Below, piece after piece: positions 15,763-20,311 of a stretch of DNA of 44,815 bases. The translations under genes and the position numbers were made by a program. The stretch covers positions 1-44,815 of the forward strand of contig JAFXST010000056.1 in NCBI GenBank assembly GCA_017525475.1, read 5' to 3'. Under the pieces are notes generated by a model. That model saw only the letters and a program-made list of their open reading frames with translations. It was not told the origin of the DNA and made no database searches. This DNA comes from Kiritimatiellia bacterium (lineage in GTDB: Bacteria; Verrucomicrobiota; Kiritimatiellia; RFP12; UBA1067). The first letter of the stretch is position 1; each line of letters starts with the position of its first letter.

Positions 15763-16659
15763 ATGAAGCGGATATTGCTTTTCCTCGCCACCAATATCCT
15801 GGTGTTGCTGACGCTGGGAATCGTGAGCAATCTCCTCTGCGTGTTCGTGCTGCAGACGTCGCTTGCCGAACTTGTCGGCCCCGACTTTGCAGTACTCATG
15901 GCGGTGGCGTTCGTCTACGGCTTTTTGGGGGCGTTTGTTTCGCTCCTTATTTCCAAACCGCTGGCCAAGTTCGCCTGCGGCGCCAAGACGGTTACCGGCG
16001 GCGAAGGGCCGGCAGAACGCTGGCTGGTGGATACCGTGCGCCAGTTGGCCGAGCGCGCCAACGTGGGCATGCCCGAGGTCGCTATCTATGCTGGTGCGCC
16101 CAACGCGTTTGCCACCGGCGCCTTCCGCAACCGCTCGCTCGTCGCGGTGTCGACCGGCATCATGGAGCAGTTGACCAAGGAGGAACTCAAGGCCGTGCTC
16201 GGCCACGAGCTCAGCCACGTGGCCAATGGCGATATGGTGACCATGACGCTGGTGCAGGGCGTGCTCAACGCGTTCGTCATCTTCCTGTCGCGCGCGCTCG
16301 CTTACGTGATCGCCTCCGCCGGCCGCGGCGAAGGGCGCAGGCGTGGCACTTCGGGGCTCTACTATCCGCTCGTCTTCGCGTTCGATCTCGCGCTCGGAGT
16401 GCTCGCTTCGCTATTGGTGTTCGCCTATTCGCGTCGCCGCGAATACCGGGCCGACGCCGGTAGCGCCAGTCTTCTCGGCACGAGCGCGAGCATGATCGCG
16501 GCGCTCAAGCGGCTCGGCAATCTTAAACCGGGCGTACTCCCCGATAGCCTCAAGGCGATGGGCGTGGCCGAAGGTCGCCGCCACGCCTCGCTCTGGTCTA
16601 CGCATCCCTCGCTCGAAGATCGTATTGCGGCTTTGGAGCGTTGGACGATGGCGGTTTGA
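15763..16659 (+). CDS. htpX: HtpX-type membrane zinc metalloprotease (M48)
   Basis: HtpX is an inner-membrane protease that degrades misfolded membrane proteins. The 298 residues show two N-terminal membrane segments (about 4-27 and 40-62), then the zinc motif GHELSHVANGDMVTM with His148, Glu149 and His152. Two more hydrophobic segments follow (about 165-185 and 203-225), and the third zinc ligand Glu is in SRRREYRADAGSASLLG. The substrate-cleft segment FATGAFRNRSLVAVSTGIM is also typical. Length and arrangement match the family. It lies between the nitroreductase and an HNH protein in one transcription unit. Confidence 0.95.
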   Translation: MKRILLFLATNILVLLTLGIVSNLLCVFVLQTSLAELVGPDFAVLMAVAFVYGFLGAFVSLLISKPLAKFACGAKTVTGGEGPAERWLVDTVRQLAERANVGMPEVAIYAGAPNAFATGAFRNRSLVAVSTGIMEQLTKEELKAVLGHELSHVANGDMVTMTLVQGVLNAFVIFLSRALAYVIASAGRGEGRRRGTSGLYYPLVFAFDLALGVLASLLVFAYSRRREYRADAGSASLLGTSASMIAALKRLGNLKPGVLPDSLKAMGVAEGRRHASLWSTHPSLEDRIAALERWTMAV

Positions 16660-16661
16660 AG

Positions 16662-16955
16662 ATGGACGACTGGCTCGATATCAATGCCGATCCGGCGCAT
16701 GTCCGGCGCGAACGCGAACGGGCGCGGGAACTGCGCAAAACCGATTGGTGGAAAGCGCGCATCGCCGCGGGCAAGTGCCACTACTGCGGCAGGGTGGTTG
16801 GCGCGGGCGCGCTTACGCTCGACCATGTAATCCCGGTCGCGCGCGGCGGCAAAAGCGTAAAGTCCAATTGCGTGCCCTGTTGCAAGGAATGCAACAACCG
16901 CAAAAAAGCGTATACGCCCGCCGAGCAGATACTCGACAAACTCTTCCCCGGGTGA
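16662..16955 (+). CDS. small HNH endonuclease family protein
   Basis: A 97-residue protein with two zinc-binding CxxC pairs (CHYC at residues 39-42 and CKEC at 74-77) flanking the HNH core LTLDHVIPVARGGKS and CNNRKKAYTP. HNH folds cut DNA or RNA in restriction, homing and repair enzymes. This free-standing version belongs to the widespread small HNH family whose cellular role is mostly unknown. The ATG at 16662, two bases after the htpX stop, was chosen. A TTG start at 16641 would add seven residues inside htpX. The N-terminal third is highly charged and helical (HVRRERERARELRKTDWW). No methylase, integrase or phage gene is near. Confidence 0.85.
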   Translation: MDDWLDINADPAHVRRERERARELRKTDWWKARIAAGKCHYCGRVVGAGALTLDHVIPVARGGKSVKSNCVPCCKECNNRKKAYTPAEQILDKLFPG

Positions 16956-16971
16956 CATGCGAACTTTCCGC

Positions 16972-17000
16972 TTGCAATTGCCGCGGGAATATGGTATAAT
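16972..17000 (+). promoter_or_regulatory. Promoter of the pilin-like gene array (leaderless)
   Basis: TTGCAA (16972-16977), a 17-base spacer and TATAAT (16995-17000) preceded by TGG. The predicted start near 17007 is two bases before the ATG at 17009, with no room for a Shine-Dalgarno sequence. Confidence 0.85.
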
Positions 17001-17008
17001 ATCCCAAA

Positions 17009-17152
17009 ATGCGAAAAGGTCAGGCGATGGTGGAGTATATGCTGGTACTGGCGTCCATGCTGGTGCTGGCGACGGTGTTGGGCTACGTGCTCGTGGCCGC
17101 CAACCGCCATGCCGACGAAACCGTAACACTGGTAACGCAGGATTGTCCATAA
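17009..17152 (+). CDS. 47-residue class III prepilin-like protein
   Basis: A very short gene that a length cut-off would miss. It encodes 47 residues beginning MRKGQAMVEYMLVLASM. The basic MRKG followed by Gln, with Glu at +5 and then about 20 hydrophobic residues (to VLGYVLVA), is a class III (Flp/Tad-type) prepilin signal, normally cut after the Gly by a TadV/PibD-type peptidase. The mature part after the hydrophobic helix is only 16 residues and ends DCP. Support for it being real: a strong promoter two bases upstream, the same KGQAMVE motif in three neighbouring genes, and a TAA followed 17 bases later by the next pilin-like gene. A structural or minor pilin role is inferred. Confidence 0.82.
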   Translation: MRKGQAMVEYMLVLASMLVLATVLGYVLVAANRHADETVTLVTQDCP

Positions 17153-17169
17153 AGAAAGGCACATAAGTC

Positions 17170-17388
17170 ATGATGAAGAAACTTCGCAAAGCGCAGACCA
17201 TGGTGGAATACATCATTATCGTCTGCCTGATTGCGGTTACGCTCATTACGGTGTTCACCTATTTGAGCCGCGCCATCGGCAAGAAAGCCGCGGGCGCCGC
17301 TGACAAGCTCTCGGCCGAGGAAGGGCAAAAGGCCAAGCAGGCCGTGGAAGAAATCGGAGAGGATTCCATCCGCTCGCTGGGCGAGTAA
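17170..17388 (+). CDS. Flp-type pilin-like protein
   Basis: A 72-residue protein with start MMKKLRKAQTMVEYIIIV. The cleavage site is predicted after Ala8 (KA|QTMVEY), with Glu at +5 as in Flp pilins. A 20-residue hydrophobic helix (IIIVCLIAVTLITVFTYL) follows, then a charged, Ala/Lys/Glu-rich amphipathic C-terminal helix. Size and layout match a major Flp/Tad pilin. A weak AAAGG ribosome-binding site lies upstream. Its TAA overlaps the next ATG by one base (TAATG). This is the best candidate for the main structural subunit of the array. Confidence 0.85.
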   Translation: MMKKLRKAQTMVEYIIIVCLIAVTLITVFTYLSRAIGKKAAGAADKLSAEEGQKAKQAVEEIGEDSIRSLGE

Positions 17389-17855
17389 TGTCGATGCGCC
17401 TCAGGCGGGGACAGGCGATGGTGGAGTCGGTGTTTGCCGTGCTCGTCATCAGCCTGATTTTTTTCGGGCTCTTCTACCTCTCACACCTCTTGACGGTCAA
17501 GATCCTCTTGGACCATGCGGCGGCGCGGGCGGCGAGGGCGCGAGCCGTGGGGCTCAACGATTTCATGTGCCGCAAGGCCGCGCGCGTGGCCGTAACCGCG
17601 GTGGCCGGCGAATGCCGATGGCCCGACTATCTCGACCGGGATATTCTCCTGCAGCGGTTGCCGCGCTATATGGAAAGCCGCGACGAGGCCGAAGCGGCAG
17701 GGTGTCTGGATTTCGAATATTGGTATAGTTTGGAGGTAAAGCCCGGCGAGAAGACCAAGGTGCGGATGGAGTTCGAGTGTCTGGACATGCCCGTGGCGCT
17801 CGAAGGCGACTATCGCATCGAATCGCACTACCGGGAGTACTTGATCGCGCCATGA
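17388..17855 (+). CDS. TadE-like minor pseudopilin
   Basis: A 155-residue protein with an N-terminal class III signal, MSMRLRRGQAMVESVFAV, followed by a hydrophobic helix (VLVISLIFFGLFYLSHLL) and a motif similar to TadE proteins (LDHAAARAARARAVG). The remaining 100 residues form a soluble domain with four or five cysteines, compatible with disulfides outside the cytoplasm. TadE-like proteins are minor pilins needed for pilus assembly. It overlaps the preceding gene by one base and the following gene by four (ATGA), so all are translated together. Confidence 0.82.
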   Translation: MSMRLRRGQAMVESVFAVLVISLIFFGLFYLSHLLTVKILLDHAAARAARARAVGLNDFMCRKAARVAVTAVAGECRWPDYLDRDILLQRLPRYMESRDEAEAAGCLDFEYWYSLEVKPGEKTKVRMEFECLDMPVALEGDYRIESHYREYLIAP

Positions 17856-19120
17856 GGAAGGGTCAGGTTGCCATATATTTGGCGATGACGCTGGTGGTGA
17901 TCGTCGTTTTGGCGGTGATGAACGTTAGCGTCTACGTTGCCGTGCGCGACAAGAACCGGGCGCAGAACGCCGGCGATGCGGCGGCGTTGGCGGTGGCGGC
18001 CGAGCAGGGGCGGCTTATCAACGAAATCGGGCGGCTCAACCTTGCGCACCTGCGCGCCCAGACGCCGATGGAAGTGGCCGAAATCGTGGAACGGCAGCGG
18101 CGGTTGTGCTTGCTTGGCCCGGTCGAGGCGATGCAACTTGCGCAAGACGCGGCCAGGCAAGAGGGCGCTTCGGAAAACGACGATTACGGCGAGCTCTTGA
18201 ACGAGCACTGGAACTACGCCATCCAGGAATACACCAAGGGCGATCCCTACCACGAGCCGTATCCGGGCGCGTGGGGCGAATATATCGACGCCATGTCGGC
18301 ACAGGGCGCCAAGAAACTTTACGCTTATGCGGACAATGCCGAGTTCTACGGCATCGGCGCCGGGCATTGGCTGACGACCAAATCGTTCTACAAGGCGATC
18401 AACGGCGAAGATTGGTGCTGGTTTTATTTCTACTGCGAATATCTGCTGCAGAACTACCGCTCTTATGCCGACTGGCCGGCGCTCCCCGGCGGCGACAGCT
18501 ACGACACCAACAATTCCGAATTTTTCCCGCTCCATCTCGAAGTGCGCAAGTGCGCAATCTCTTCGGTATACAACCGCCAGGAATTGTCCGAAATCGAAAA
18601 GAACTACAACGAAAACCTGGTCGACGACCAGGAACAGTATTGGTTTTTCTTTCGCGACGATTTCCGTCTTCCTTGGAATAAACTGAAAGACGGTTTCCCG
18701 GCGGTGGGGCCGGTGCGCGACGATCGCGATTACTATGGCTGTTCTGCCGTGGTGCGCGTAAAGTCGGGCGAGAGCGAGTGGACGGCCGCCGCCAAGCCGT
18801 TTGGCGATGTCGACGAGAAGGGCTTGGTGCTCCCTGCGTTTACGTCGGCGCGGCTCATTCCAATCGATGCCGCCACCGCAGGCGAGCGGTGCACTGCCGA
18901 TCGCGAATGGGTATGCCACTTGCGCGACCACTTGGACAAGTATCTCGACAATGGCGTATCGGGGCTCAAGCCGCAGTGCGGATACTGCGCGGCGTTGCGC
19001 ACCTGGGAGCACGACAGCTTCCGCTTCCGGGGACGGCTGTGGCTAAGGCAATACAAGAATACGTGCCGCCGTTCTTTTGGCGGCGGTCTCAGCGGTCAGG
19101 GAGGTGCAGTTGGGCACTAA
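17852..19120 (+). CDS. TadG/TadE-like pilus-associated protein with large extracellular domain
   Basis: The ATG at 17852, in an ATGA overlap, yields 422 residues starting MRKGQVAIYLAMTLVVIVV. The signal resembles its neighbours, but the +5 position is Tyr where the others have Glu. After the membrane helix comes NRAQNAGDAAALAVAAEQG, the segment typical of TadG-like (Flp pilus assembly TadE/G-like) proteins. The large remainder is rich in Tyr, Trp and Asp (DWCWFYFYCEYLLQNY, QYWFFFRDDFRLPW), with paired cysteines near the C-terminus (CTADREWVC and CGYC). I do not recognise a catalytic motif. It may form a tip or adhesive subunit of the filament, which is inference. Confidence 0.75.
   Translation: MRKGQVAIYLAMTLVVIVVLAVMNVSVYVAVRDKNRAQNAGDAAALAVAAEQGRLINEIGRLNLAHLRAQTPMEVAEIVERQRRLCLLGPVEAMQLAQDAARQEGASENDDYGELLNEHWNYAIQEYTKGDPYHEPYPGAWGEYIDAMSAQGAKKLYAYADNAEFYGIGAGHWLTTKSFYKAINGEDWCWFYFYCEYLLQNYRSYADWPALPGGDSYDTNNSEFFPLHLEVRKCAISSVYNRQELSEIEKNYNENLVDDQEQYWFFFRDDFRLPWNKLKDGFPAVGPVRDDRDYYGCSAVVRVKSGESEWTAAAKPFGDVDEKGLVLPAFTSARLIPIDAATAGERCTADREWVCHLRDHLDKYLDNGVSGLKPQCGYCAALRTWEHDSFRFRGRLWLRQYKNTCRRSFGGGLSGQGGAVGH
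19098..19104 (+). promoter_or_regulatory. Shine-Dalgarno that fixes a TTG start
   Basis: AGGGAGG lies five bases before TTG at 19110, the start chosen for the last pilin-like gene. The in-frame GTG at 19104 overlaps this site and is therefore unlikely to be used. Confidence 0.7.
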
Positions 19121-19286
19121 CCGCAAAGGACAGGCCATGGTGGAACTGGCTATCGGCATGGTGGCGGTGGCGCTGGTGGTGACGACGGTCGTCGCATTTA
19201 CCGAATTTATCGTTGACGATCTCAAGGCGCAGGGTGAATACCGCCCGACCAAGAGTTCGACTTTCCTCAAATACATACTGGAGTAG
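19110..19286 (+). CDS. 58-residue class III prepilin-like protein
   Basis: Translation from TTG at 19110 gives 58 residues beginning MGTNRKGQAMVELAIGMV, again with the RKG|QAMVE class III prepilin motif and Glu at +5. A hydrophobic helix follows (GMVAVALVVTTVVAFTEF) and then a short polar tail (DDLKAQGEYRPTKSSTFLKYILE). It overlaps the upstream gene by 11 bases and sits six bases before the M24 peptidase gene. It is the fifth member of the array and resembles a short Flp-type pilin. The unusual start codon is backed by a good Shine-Dalgarno sequence. Confidence 0.78.
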   Translation: MGTNRKGQAMVELAIGMVAVALVVTTVVAFTEFIVDDLKAQGEYRPTKSSTFLKYILE

Positions 19287-19291
19287 GCAAT

Positions 19292-20311
19292 ATGACCGAA
19301 CGAATAGCCAAACTGGAAGCATATCTCAAGGCCGAGAAACTCTCGGCGGGACTGGTGTTCGACGAATTCAACGTGCGCGCCTTGACGGGTATCGAGTGCG
19401 ACAATGCTTGTTTGGTGGTGGCGCCAGGGCAAAAGCCGGTATTCTTCACCGACTTTCGCTATGTGCCCATGGTGCATCGCGTGGCGCCCGGGCTCAAGGT
19501 CAAGGATATCAAGAATATCCGCTTTCCGGGCAAGAAGGTTGGCTACGAGCCTAGCATGAGCCATGCACGCTTCCTCGGGCTCCAGAAAAAGTTCCCCGGC
19601 GTCGAGTTTGTGGACTTCGAGCCCAAGATCAAGGAATTGCGCGCGGTAAAGACGGCGGAGGAAATCGAGAAGATCCGCAAAGTGGAGGCGCTCAACGACG
19701 AAATCTGGGCCGCCGCGCAGCAAAAACTGCGCCCCGGCATGACCGAGCGCGAAATGGCGCGCATCATCCAGCTGCTCATGGTCGAGCGCGGCGACGGCGA
19801 GGCGTTCGCCACCATCGTCTGCGTGGGCAAAAACGCGGCCGAGTGCCATCACGTGCCCGACGACACCAAGTGGAACGGCAAGGAGCCGGTATTGGTGGAT
19901 ATGGGCGTCAAGCTCGACGGCGTCTGCGCCGATATGACGCGCAACCTGGTGCCGGCGCGCGCCGGCGCCACCTACCGCAAAGTATACAAGACGGTGCTGG
20001 AGGCCAACATGAAGGCCATCGCGGGACTTCGCCCCGGCATGACCGGCAAGGCGCTCGACAAGATCGCGCGCGACCACATCAAGGCGGCCGGGTTCGGCAA
20101 GTGCTTCGGGCACAGCCTCGGGCATGGCGTGGGCTATCAGGTGCACGAGGCGCCCAACGCGAGCAGCAAGAGCACGATGAAGCTCGAGCCGGGGATGCTG
20201 GTGACCATCGAGCCGGGCATCTATCTCGAGGGCAATCTCGGCGTGCGCATCGAGGATTTGGTGCTCGTGACCGAAACCGGTTGCGAAGTCCTCTCCCATA
20301 GCGCCAAGTAA
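19292..20311 (+). CDS. Xaa-Pro aminopeptidase-type M24 metallopeptidase
   Basis: The 339-residue protein has the two-domain layout of PepP/PepQ-like enzymes: an N-terminal creatinase-like domain (about 1-115, including LVFDEFNVRALTGIE and FFTDFRYV) and a C-terminal pita-bread domain with a dinuclear metal centre. Ligands are visible in VDMGVKLDGVCADMTR (two Asp), GHSLGHGVGYQVHEAP (His), TIEPGIYL (Glu) and VRIEDLVLV (Glu). It should remove N-terminal residues preceding proline, probably in the cytoplasm as no signal is seen. It follows the pilin-like genes after six bases and is probably cotranscribed, although a role in pilus processing is not implied by its family. Confidence 0.92.
   Translation: MTERIAKLEAYLKAEKLSAGLVFDEFNVRALTGIECDNACLVVAPGQKPVFFTDFRYVPMVHRVAPGLKVKDIKNIRFPGKKVGYEPSMSHARFLGLQKKFPGVEFVDFEPKIKELRAVKTAEEIEKIRKVEALNDEIWAAAQQKLRPGMTEREMARIIQLLMVERGDGEAFATIVCVGKNAAECHHVPDDTKWNGKEPVLVDMGVKLDGVCADMTRNLVPARAGATYRKVYKTVLEANMKAIAGLRPGMTGKALDKIARDHIKAAGFGKCFGHSLGHGVGYQVHEAPNASSKSTMKLEPGMLVTIEPGIYLEGNLGVRIEDLVLVTETGCEVLSHSAK

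Follow-up and report, generated by a model that had tools for sequence, protein, structure and literature searches.

A probable Tad pilus pilin operon separated from its motor genes in an uncultured Kiritimatiellia bacterium

Results

The array and its reading

We found five tightly packed open reading frames, all encoding prepilin-like proteins, on the plus strand (positions 17009–19286) of a contig in the draft genome of an uncultured Kiritimatiellia bacterium. We interpret the array as an operon for the pilins of a Tad (type IVc, Flp) pilus that would be built by an unlinked motor, the operon having been split in this lineage, and we put the probability of this reading at roughly 0.88. The system would then be a dispersed variant of a known machine and not a new kind of filament. 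The window, by which we mean the entire 44,815-nucleotide stretch that was analysed, is one contig (C85) of a 1.3 Mb draft in 98 contigs that is 83% complete; the genome-wide work consisted of searches.

Consecutive genes of the array are spaced by +17, −1, −4, and −11 nt (Table 1). All five proteins begin with a short basic leader, carry Gly or Ala ahead of a Gln, and contain a hydrophobic stretch. With a slash at the predicted cleavage site, the leader motifs read MRKG/QAMVE (gene 1), MMKKLRKA/QTMVE (gene 2), MSMRLRRG/QAMVE (gene 3), MRKG/QVAIY (gene 4), and LGTNRKG/QAMVE (gene 5). Four of the five proteins have Glu at +5, and the large gene 4 product has Tyr there. The TTG start of gene 5 is at the site of an ATG in relatives. 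An earlier note on this DNA, written from the letters and the open reading frames, had described five consecutive prepilin-like genes of these lengths, four of them with Glu at +5 behind [GA]-Q sites; we find all five frames in place, the motifs read as described, and Gln at +1 and Glu at +5 are kept across the orthologues of genes 1–3. The array is not a chance assemblage, because orthologues in the same order occur throughout the class.

Table 1 Features of the pilin array and its surroundings in the window
Feature	Position	Strand	Description
Upstream neighbour	16641–16955	+	HNH endonuclease-like; not counted as part of the system
Promoter (putative)	16972–17000	+	TTGCAA, 17 nt, TATAAT, extended −10 (TGG); 10/12 consensus matches
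Gene 1	17009–17152	+	47 aa; Flp-like small prepilin, candidate adapter pilin
Gene 2	17170–17388	+	72 aa; Flp-type prepilin, candidate major pilin
Gene 3	17388–17855	+	155 aa; TadE-like minor prepilin
Gene 4	17852–19120	+	422 aa; TadG-like minor prepilin, probably at the tip; no Glu+5
Gene 5	19110–19286	+	58 aa, TTG start; short form of TadE/TadF-like minor pilin
Downstream neighbour	19292–20311	+	M24 Xaa-Pro-type peptidase; occupies the place of gene6-rcpC in the intact operon

Two Flp-like pilins

Gene 2 can be assigned as a Flp pilin with good confidence from sequence comparison, because 30 of its 33 orthologues match the Flp_Fap family (PF04964; best E 9.9e-10). The window copy itself scores 23.8 bits (E 3.8e-5), below the cut-off of 32.2, and its PDB matches are PilA and Flp pilins only, all of them weak (E 0.16–0.2). 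Gene 1 reaches 18.8 bits against PF04021 (cut-off 23.7); we did not adopt the class III signal of archaeal pilins that this family represents, as scores stay below the cut-off. In the alignment of 32 gene 1 sequences, Gly at −1, Gln at +1, Glu at +5, and the final Pro are invariant. Gln at +1 and Glu at +5 are kept in 32/32 orthologues of gene 1 and 33/33 of gene 2, counts that are partly circular since these orthologues were picked with the motif. Gene 2 is the likely major pilin, and gene 1 would be an adapter beneath the tip.

Minor pilins and the probable tip

Gene 3 matches TadE (PF07811) over the cut-off (E 3e-6), as do 30 of its 50 orthologues, among which Gln at +1 is present in 49 and Glu at +5 in all 50. 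Its predicted model is a 52-residue helix with a beta-hairpin head (pLDDT 94). Gene 4 likewise exceeds the cut-off for the TadE/G-like Tad family (PF13400), which 51 of 70 orthologues match. The +5 residue in the gene 4 family is Phe, Tyr, Leu, or Val in 70/70 sequences and never Glu, and the absence of Glu at +5 is the mark of the tip-most pilin of the type II secretion system (T2SS), GspK. The predicted model of gene 4 (pLDDT 92) has a 67-residue first helix and a disordered Gly-rich tail, and the family has four near-invariant Cys residues, which may form disulfides. The tail (19085–19120; orthologues L089–L168) terminates in Gly-His or Ala-His in 79/79 sequences, Gly-His in the window. We considered the tail as a by-product of the overlap with the start of gene 5 and rejected this, since the terminal His codons (CAC 57, CAT 22) and the three types of stop vary freely and the tail persists where gene 5 starts elsewhere; this makes selection acting on the protein the more likely cause.

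The TadG and TadE profiles gave no sequence match among solved structures. Searches with the predicted models by Foldseek and VIA-align returned weak, scattered matches for gene 4 (best Z 4.3) and a best Z of 6.5 for gene 3 (pantothenate synthetase); none is informative, and neither result is proof of a new fold. Gene 5 was placed in no family by Pfam. Its mature length is 161–186 aa in linked operons (16 measured); elsewhere the median is 96 aa and the minimum 52, and the window copy has 58 aa including the leader.

The earlier note had read the set as subunits of a filament or pseudopilus, with short pilins, a TadE-like protein, and a large Cys-containing TadG-like protein that might be a tip adhesin; the Pfam matches and orthologues support a filament of this make-up, with the large protein as a probable tip subunit. 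The profile comparison it proposed gave a divided outcome: genes 3 and 4 pass the TadE and Tad cut-offs, and gene 2 falls below that of Flp_Fap, yet nearly all of its orthologues match.

Machinery elsewhere in the genome

The window contig encodes no ATPase, platform, secretin, or A24 peptidase. The array had been described as being without assembly machinery, which is true of the window contig but wrong for the organism, because Tad genes and a peptidase lie elsewhere in the genome; absence from a window says nothing about the genome. Contig C52 carries three consecutive genes, for an FHA-fused TadA/CpaF, TadB, and RcpC, and contig C18 carries TadC, then an FHA protein, then a PEGA protein. 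The 551-aa TadA/CpaF, the Tad ATPase for which the earlier note had proposed a genome search, is a T2SSE ATPase with an N-terminal FHA domain and is closest to solved CpaF (E 5.5e-131). FHA (PF00498) is found on TadA of this genome and of four relatives; the protein that follows TadC also carries it. The platform pair, TadB (225 aa) and TadC (259 aa), passes the T2SSF cut-off and is in tandem in relatives. RcpC/CpaB scores 83.9 bits against PF16976 (cut-off 28.8) and has no PDB match at E 0.1. The possibility that the genome lacks any prepilin peptidase, which had been raised as telling against the prepilin reading, falls away with a two-domain, PilD-type A24 peptidase of 264 aa on contig C30. 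It is the only A24 hit, and no single-domain TadV-type peptidase was found in the 83%-complete assembly. A dedicated TadV is not a strict hallmark of Tad pili, since some systems share their peptidases.

Across the genome, the window is the sole place with TadE and Flp matches, and RcpC is found once; therefore, a single set of pilins and a single alignment gene are available for pairing. Pilins and machinery are spread over three contigs (C85, C52, and C18), which lie on separate pieces of the fragmented draft.

Based on these genes, we propose how the pilus would be assembled. The prepilins would be cut after Gly or Ala and before Gln by the PilD-type peptidase of C30. Genes 3, 4, and 5 (TadE-, TadG-, and shortened TadF-like) would make up the tip complex, in which the large TadG-like protein would be the outermost subunit. 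The FHA-fused CpaF/TadA ATPase, working with TadB and TadC, would add pilins to the growing filament at the inner membrane, and the filament would pass through the RcpC/CpaB ring. The FHA domains may gate the motor via phospho-threonine signalling, and the pilus may serve in surface adhesion.

The linked operon in relatives and its split

We compared the locus with 192 relatives from the genus to the class; the group is Kiritimatiellia, nearly all uncultured. The TadG-like gene is present in 168/192 and RcpC in 162/192. In many relatives the pilin array is followed by gene 6, rcpC, tadA with FHA, tadB, tadC, FHA, and PEGA. The rcpC-linked loci run from the array straight into rcpC and tadA, usually with tadB, and on to tadC-FHA-PEGA where the contig reaches. 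The gene order, which the earlier note did not recognise, is hence a familiar one, as the same five genes head this contiguous Tad operon. One linked Kiritimatiellia-type Tad operon is on a contig titled Akkermansia muciniphila (L135, CAMBQN010000017.1), which is probably a mislabelled MAG.

Among 80 named loci, 24 have rcpC no more than 4 kb downstream of tadG, 42 with at least 3 kb of downstream sequence show no rcpC linkage, and 14 are too short to tell. An Xaa-Pro peptidase gene stands 3′ of the array in 29 of the 80, and none of these is also rcpC-linked. In all of the approximately 45 genus members with a listed place for each gene, tadG and rcpC are on different contigs; in the same family, order, and class, many genomes have the two genes close to each other. 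On the TadG tree, which is unrooted, the rcpC-linked state requires 3 changes versus 20.3 in shuffles. Because the tree is unrooted, we infer the direction of the split. At locus L111, tadC-FHA-PEGA still follows the array and the Xaa-Pro gene at a distance of a few kb. This placement, and the fact that the linked order is that of a Tad operon, fit a loss of linkage. The machinery genes would once have been in one operon with the pilins and become separated in this lineage, and the machinery would lie elsewhere in the genome because the operon, intact in many relatives, was split here. The Tad operon has other rearrangements as well: FHA2-PEGA is upstream of the array in L148 and L158 and inverted downstream in L161.

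Gene 6 encodes an exported protein of about 225–260 aa, is found in 64/192 genomes, and adjoins gene 5 and rcpC in the linked operon. It has no Pfam match and was not found in the genus of the window. We observed gene 6 between gene 5 and rcpC in L074, L081, L082, L084, L142, L150, and L153. Points against the Tad reading include the sub-threshold Pfam scores of genes 1 and 2, the shortening of gene 5, the failure to find gene 6 in the genus, and the lack of a match to an RcpA-type secretin in this genome.

The strongest rival to an unlinked Tad motor is that the array pilins are built by type IVa pilus or T2SS-like machinery and that the Tad motor is used elsewhere. The genome does contain several PilB/PilT-like ATPases and PilC-like platforms (PilB/PilC-type genes on C10, C41, C79, and C20) and three secretin genes, among them a large secretin (C11); moreover, the sole peptidase found is of the PilD type, and no Tad-type secretin was found. 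However, Flp, TadE, and TadG are families of Tad systems, relatives have the array and rcpC-tadA-tadB-tadC in one unbroken stretch, and TadG and RcpC tend to be missing from the same genomes. Both are missing in 14/192 genomes (Fisher p 1.8e-7), and the association is also significant among the 30 genomes of the class that lie outside the order (p 1.3e-4), p-values that are guides only because the genomes are related. We consider construction by the type IVa or T2SS-like machinery unlikely.

A putative promoter for the separated array

In the split lineage, the array is preceded by a putative promoter of its own. An exact TATAAT is found 5′ of gene 1 in 25 of 37 rcpC-unlinked loci (window included) versus 0/8 linked loci, against a shuffled-sequence rate of 1.7%, and in the unlinked loci it is usually 6–8 nt ahead of the gene 1 start codon. 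In the window, the ATG of gene 1 is 8 nt past the −10 box, and the mRNA may therefore be leaderless. The window has eight exact TGNTATAAT sites (e.g. 15173, 16992, and 21098), which suggests that TGNTATAAT is a common promoter type of this genome. Such extended −10 boxes lie approximately 10 nt ahead of the start codons of several window genes, and this suggests that the genome commonly makes leaderless transcripts.

The promoter also bears on whether the array might be a decaying remnant in a reduced genome, with no functional pilus. The shortness of gene 5 and the failure to find gene 6 in the genus would agree with decay, but the five frames are open with their motif residues kept, the extended −10 promoter is common to the lineage, a similarly short gene 5 is kept in the genome with the closest TadG match (G017), and this genome has intact motor genes, so that we regard decay as improbable, somewhat more so than the use of type IVa or T2SS-like machinery. 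A novel type of filament or pseudopilus that would work independently of the Tad motor might be imagined from the array being kept alone beside the Xaa-Pro gene in a large lineage with motor genes not nearby, but motor, platform, RcpC, and peptidase are in the same genome and the same array is in a contiguous Tad operon of the class, making this the least credible of the readings.

Discussion

The array and its scattered partners correspond to the Tad/Flp systems of Caulobacter (cpa) and of Aggregatibacter and Pseudomonas (flp-tad-rcp) in having a Flp pilin, TadE- and TadG-like pilins, CpaF/TadA, TadB, TadC, and RcpC/CpaB. In such systems, mature Flp pilins are polymerised from the inner membrane by TadA with TadB and TadC, through the RcpC ring to the secretin (PMC12307814). 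The present system differs in that its genes are in at least three places, TadA carries FHA, and there are additional FHA and PEGA proteins; furthermore, no RcpA-type secretin or single-domain TadV was found, and relatives have the extra gene 6. A single locus is usual for Tad genes but not obligatory. Scattered Tad genes have been called very rare (PMC6668835), and the present genome provides an example of that arrangement.

The Kil system of Myxococcus xanthus likewise has an ATPase with an N-terminal FHA, additional FHA proteins, separate gene clusters, Flp adapters with a TadE/TadF/TadG-like tip, and processing possibly by PilD. In Myxococcus, the TadE/F/G-like proteins KilL/M/N form tips that are joined by Flp adapters (PMC12075869), and the two Flp-like and the TadE-, TadG-, and TadF-like proteins described here fit this tip layout by analogy. 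In contrast to the four tip sets of Kil, there is one here (a single TadE match in the genome), no short KilC-like secretin tracks the system, and there is no evidence of predation. Kil-like systems have been reported only in Myxococcales, Bdellovibrionales, and Bradymonadales (PMC8460266, PMC12075869). The likeness to Kil that we describe is one of layout. Our literature searches returned no paper on a Tad pilus in Kiritimatiellia, and by title and abstract the papers that mention type IV pili together with this class are not on this system. Our reading would extend Tad pili with an FHA motor to a class of mostly uncultured bacteria.

The T2SS pseudopilus (GspG-K) shares a small prepilin set with one large subunit without Glu at +5, which in that system is GspK. 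The array proteins match no pseudopilin family, and have the TadE, TadG, and Flp families and CpaF synteny instead.

The apparent lack of a dedicated secretin raises the question of how Tad pili exit a diderm cell. An RcpA/CpaC-type secretin is expected in diderms and is accessory in the generic Tad model of Denise et al. 2019 (PMC6668835). We found no match to this type (PF13629) in the 83%-complete genome or in 172/192 genomes, and none of the secretins of this genome is linked to the Tad system. A secretin on C55 (518 aa, short N-terminal part, followed by a DUF481 gene; G000, L019:3832-5388) was tried as the RcpA partner and set aside, as it is mostly confined to one family, is absent from many pilus-bearing genomes, and does not track TadG. 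The class-wide Tad system may share PilD and a pore. A bolder version, which we hold to be possible but rather doubtful, is that Kiritimatiellia share, across the class, an FHA-controlled form of the Tad system that lacks a secretin and a TadV of its own, borrows PilD and either a foreign pore or none, and uses the [Gly/Ala]-His tip tail for docking or recognition.

PF13629 does occur in 20/192 relatives. Often these genomes also have additional copies of RcpC and a short peptidase resembling TadV, pointing to a second Tad system of the conventional type in those approximately 20 genomes. Because these genomes seem to hold a second system, the class-wide one would be left without a recognised secretin and peptidase of its own. 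An apparent second Tad locus was observed in G063, G067, G082, G084, G174, G179, G186, and others (L169–L172).
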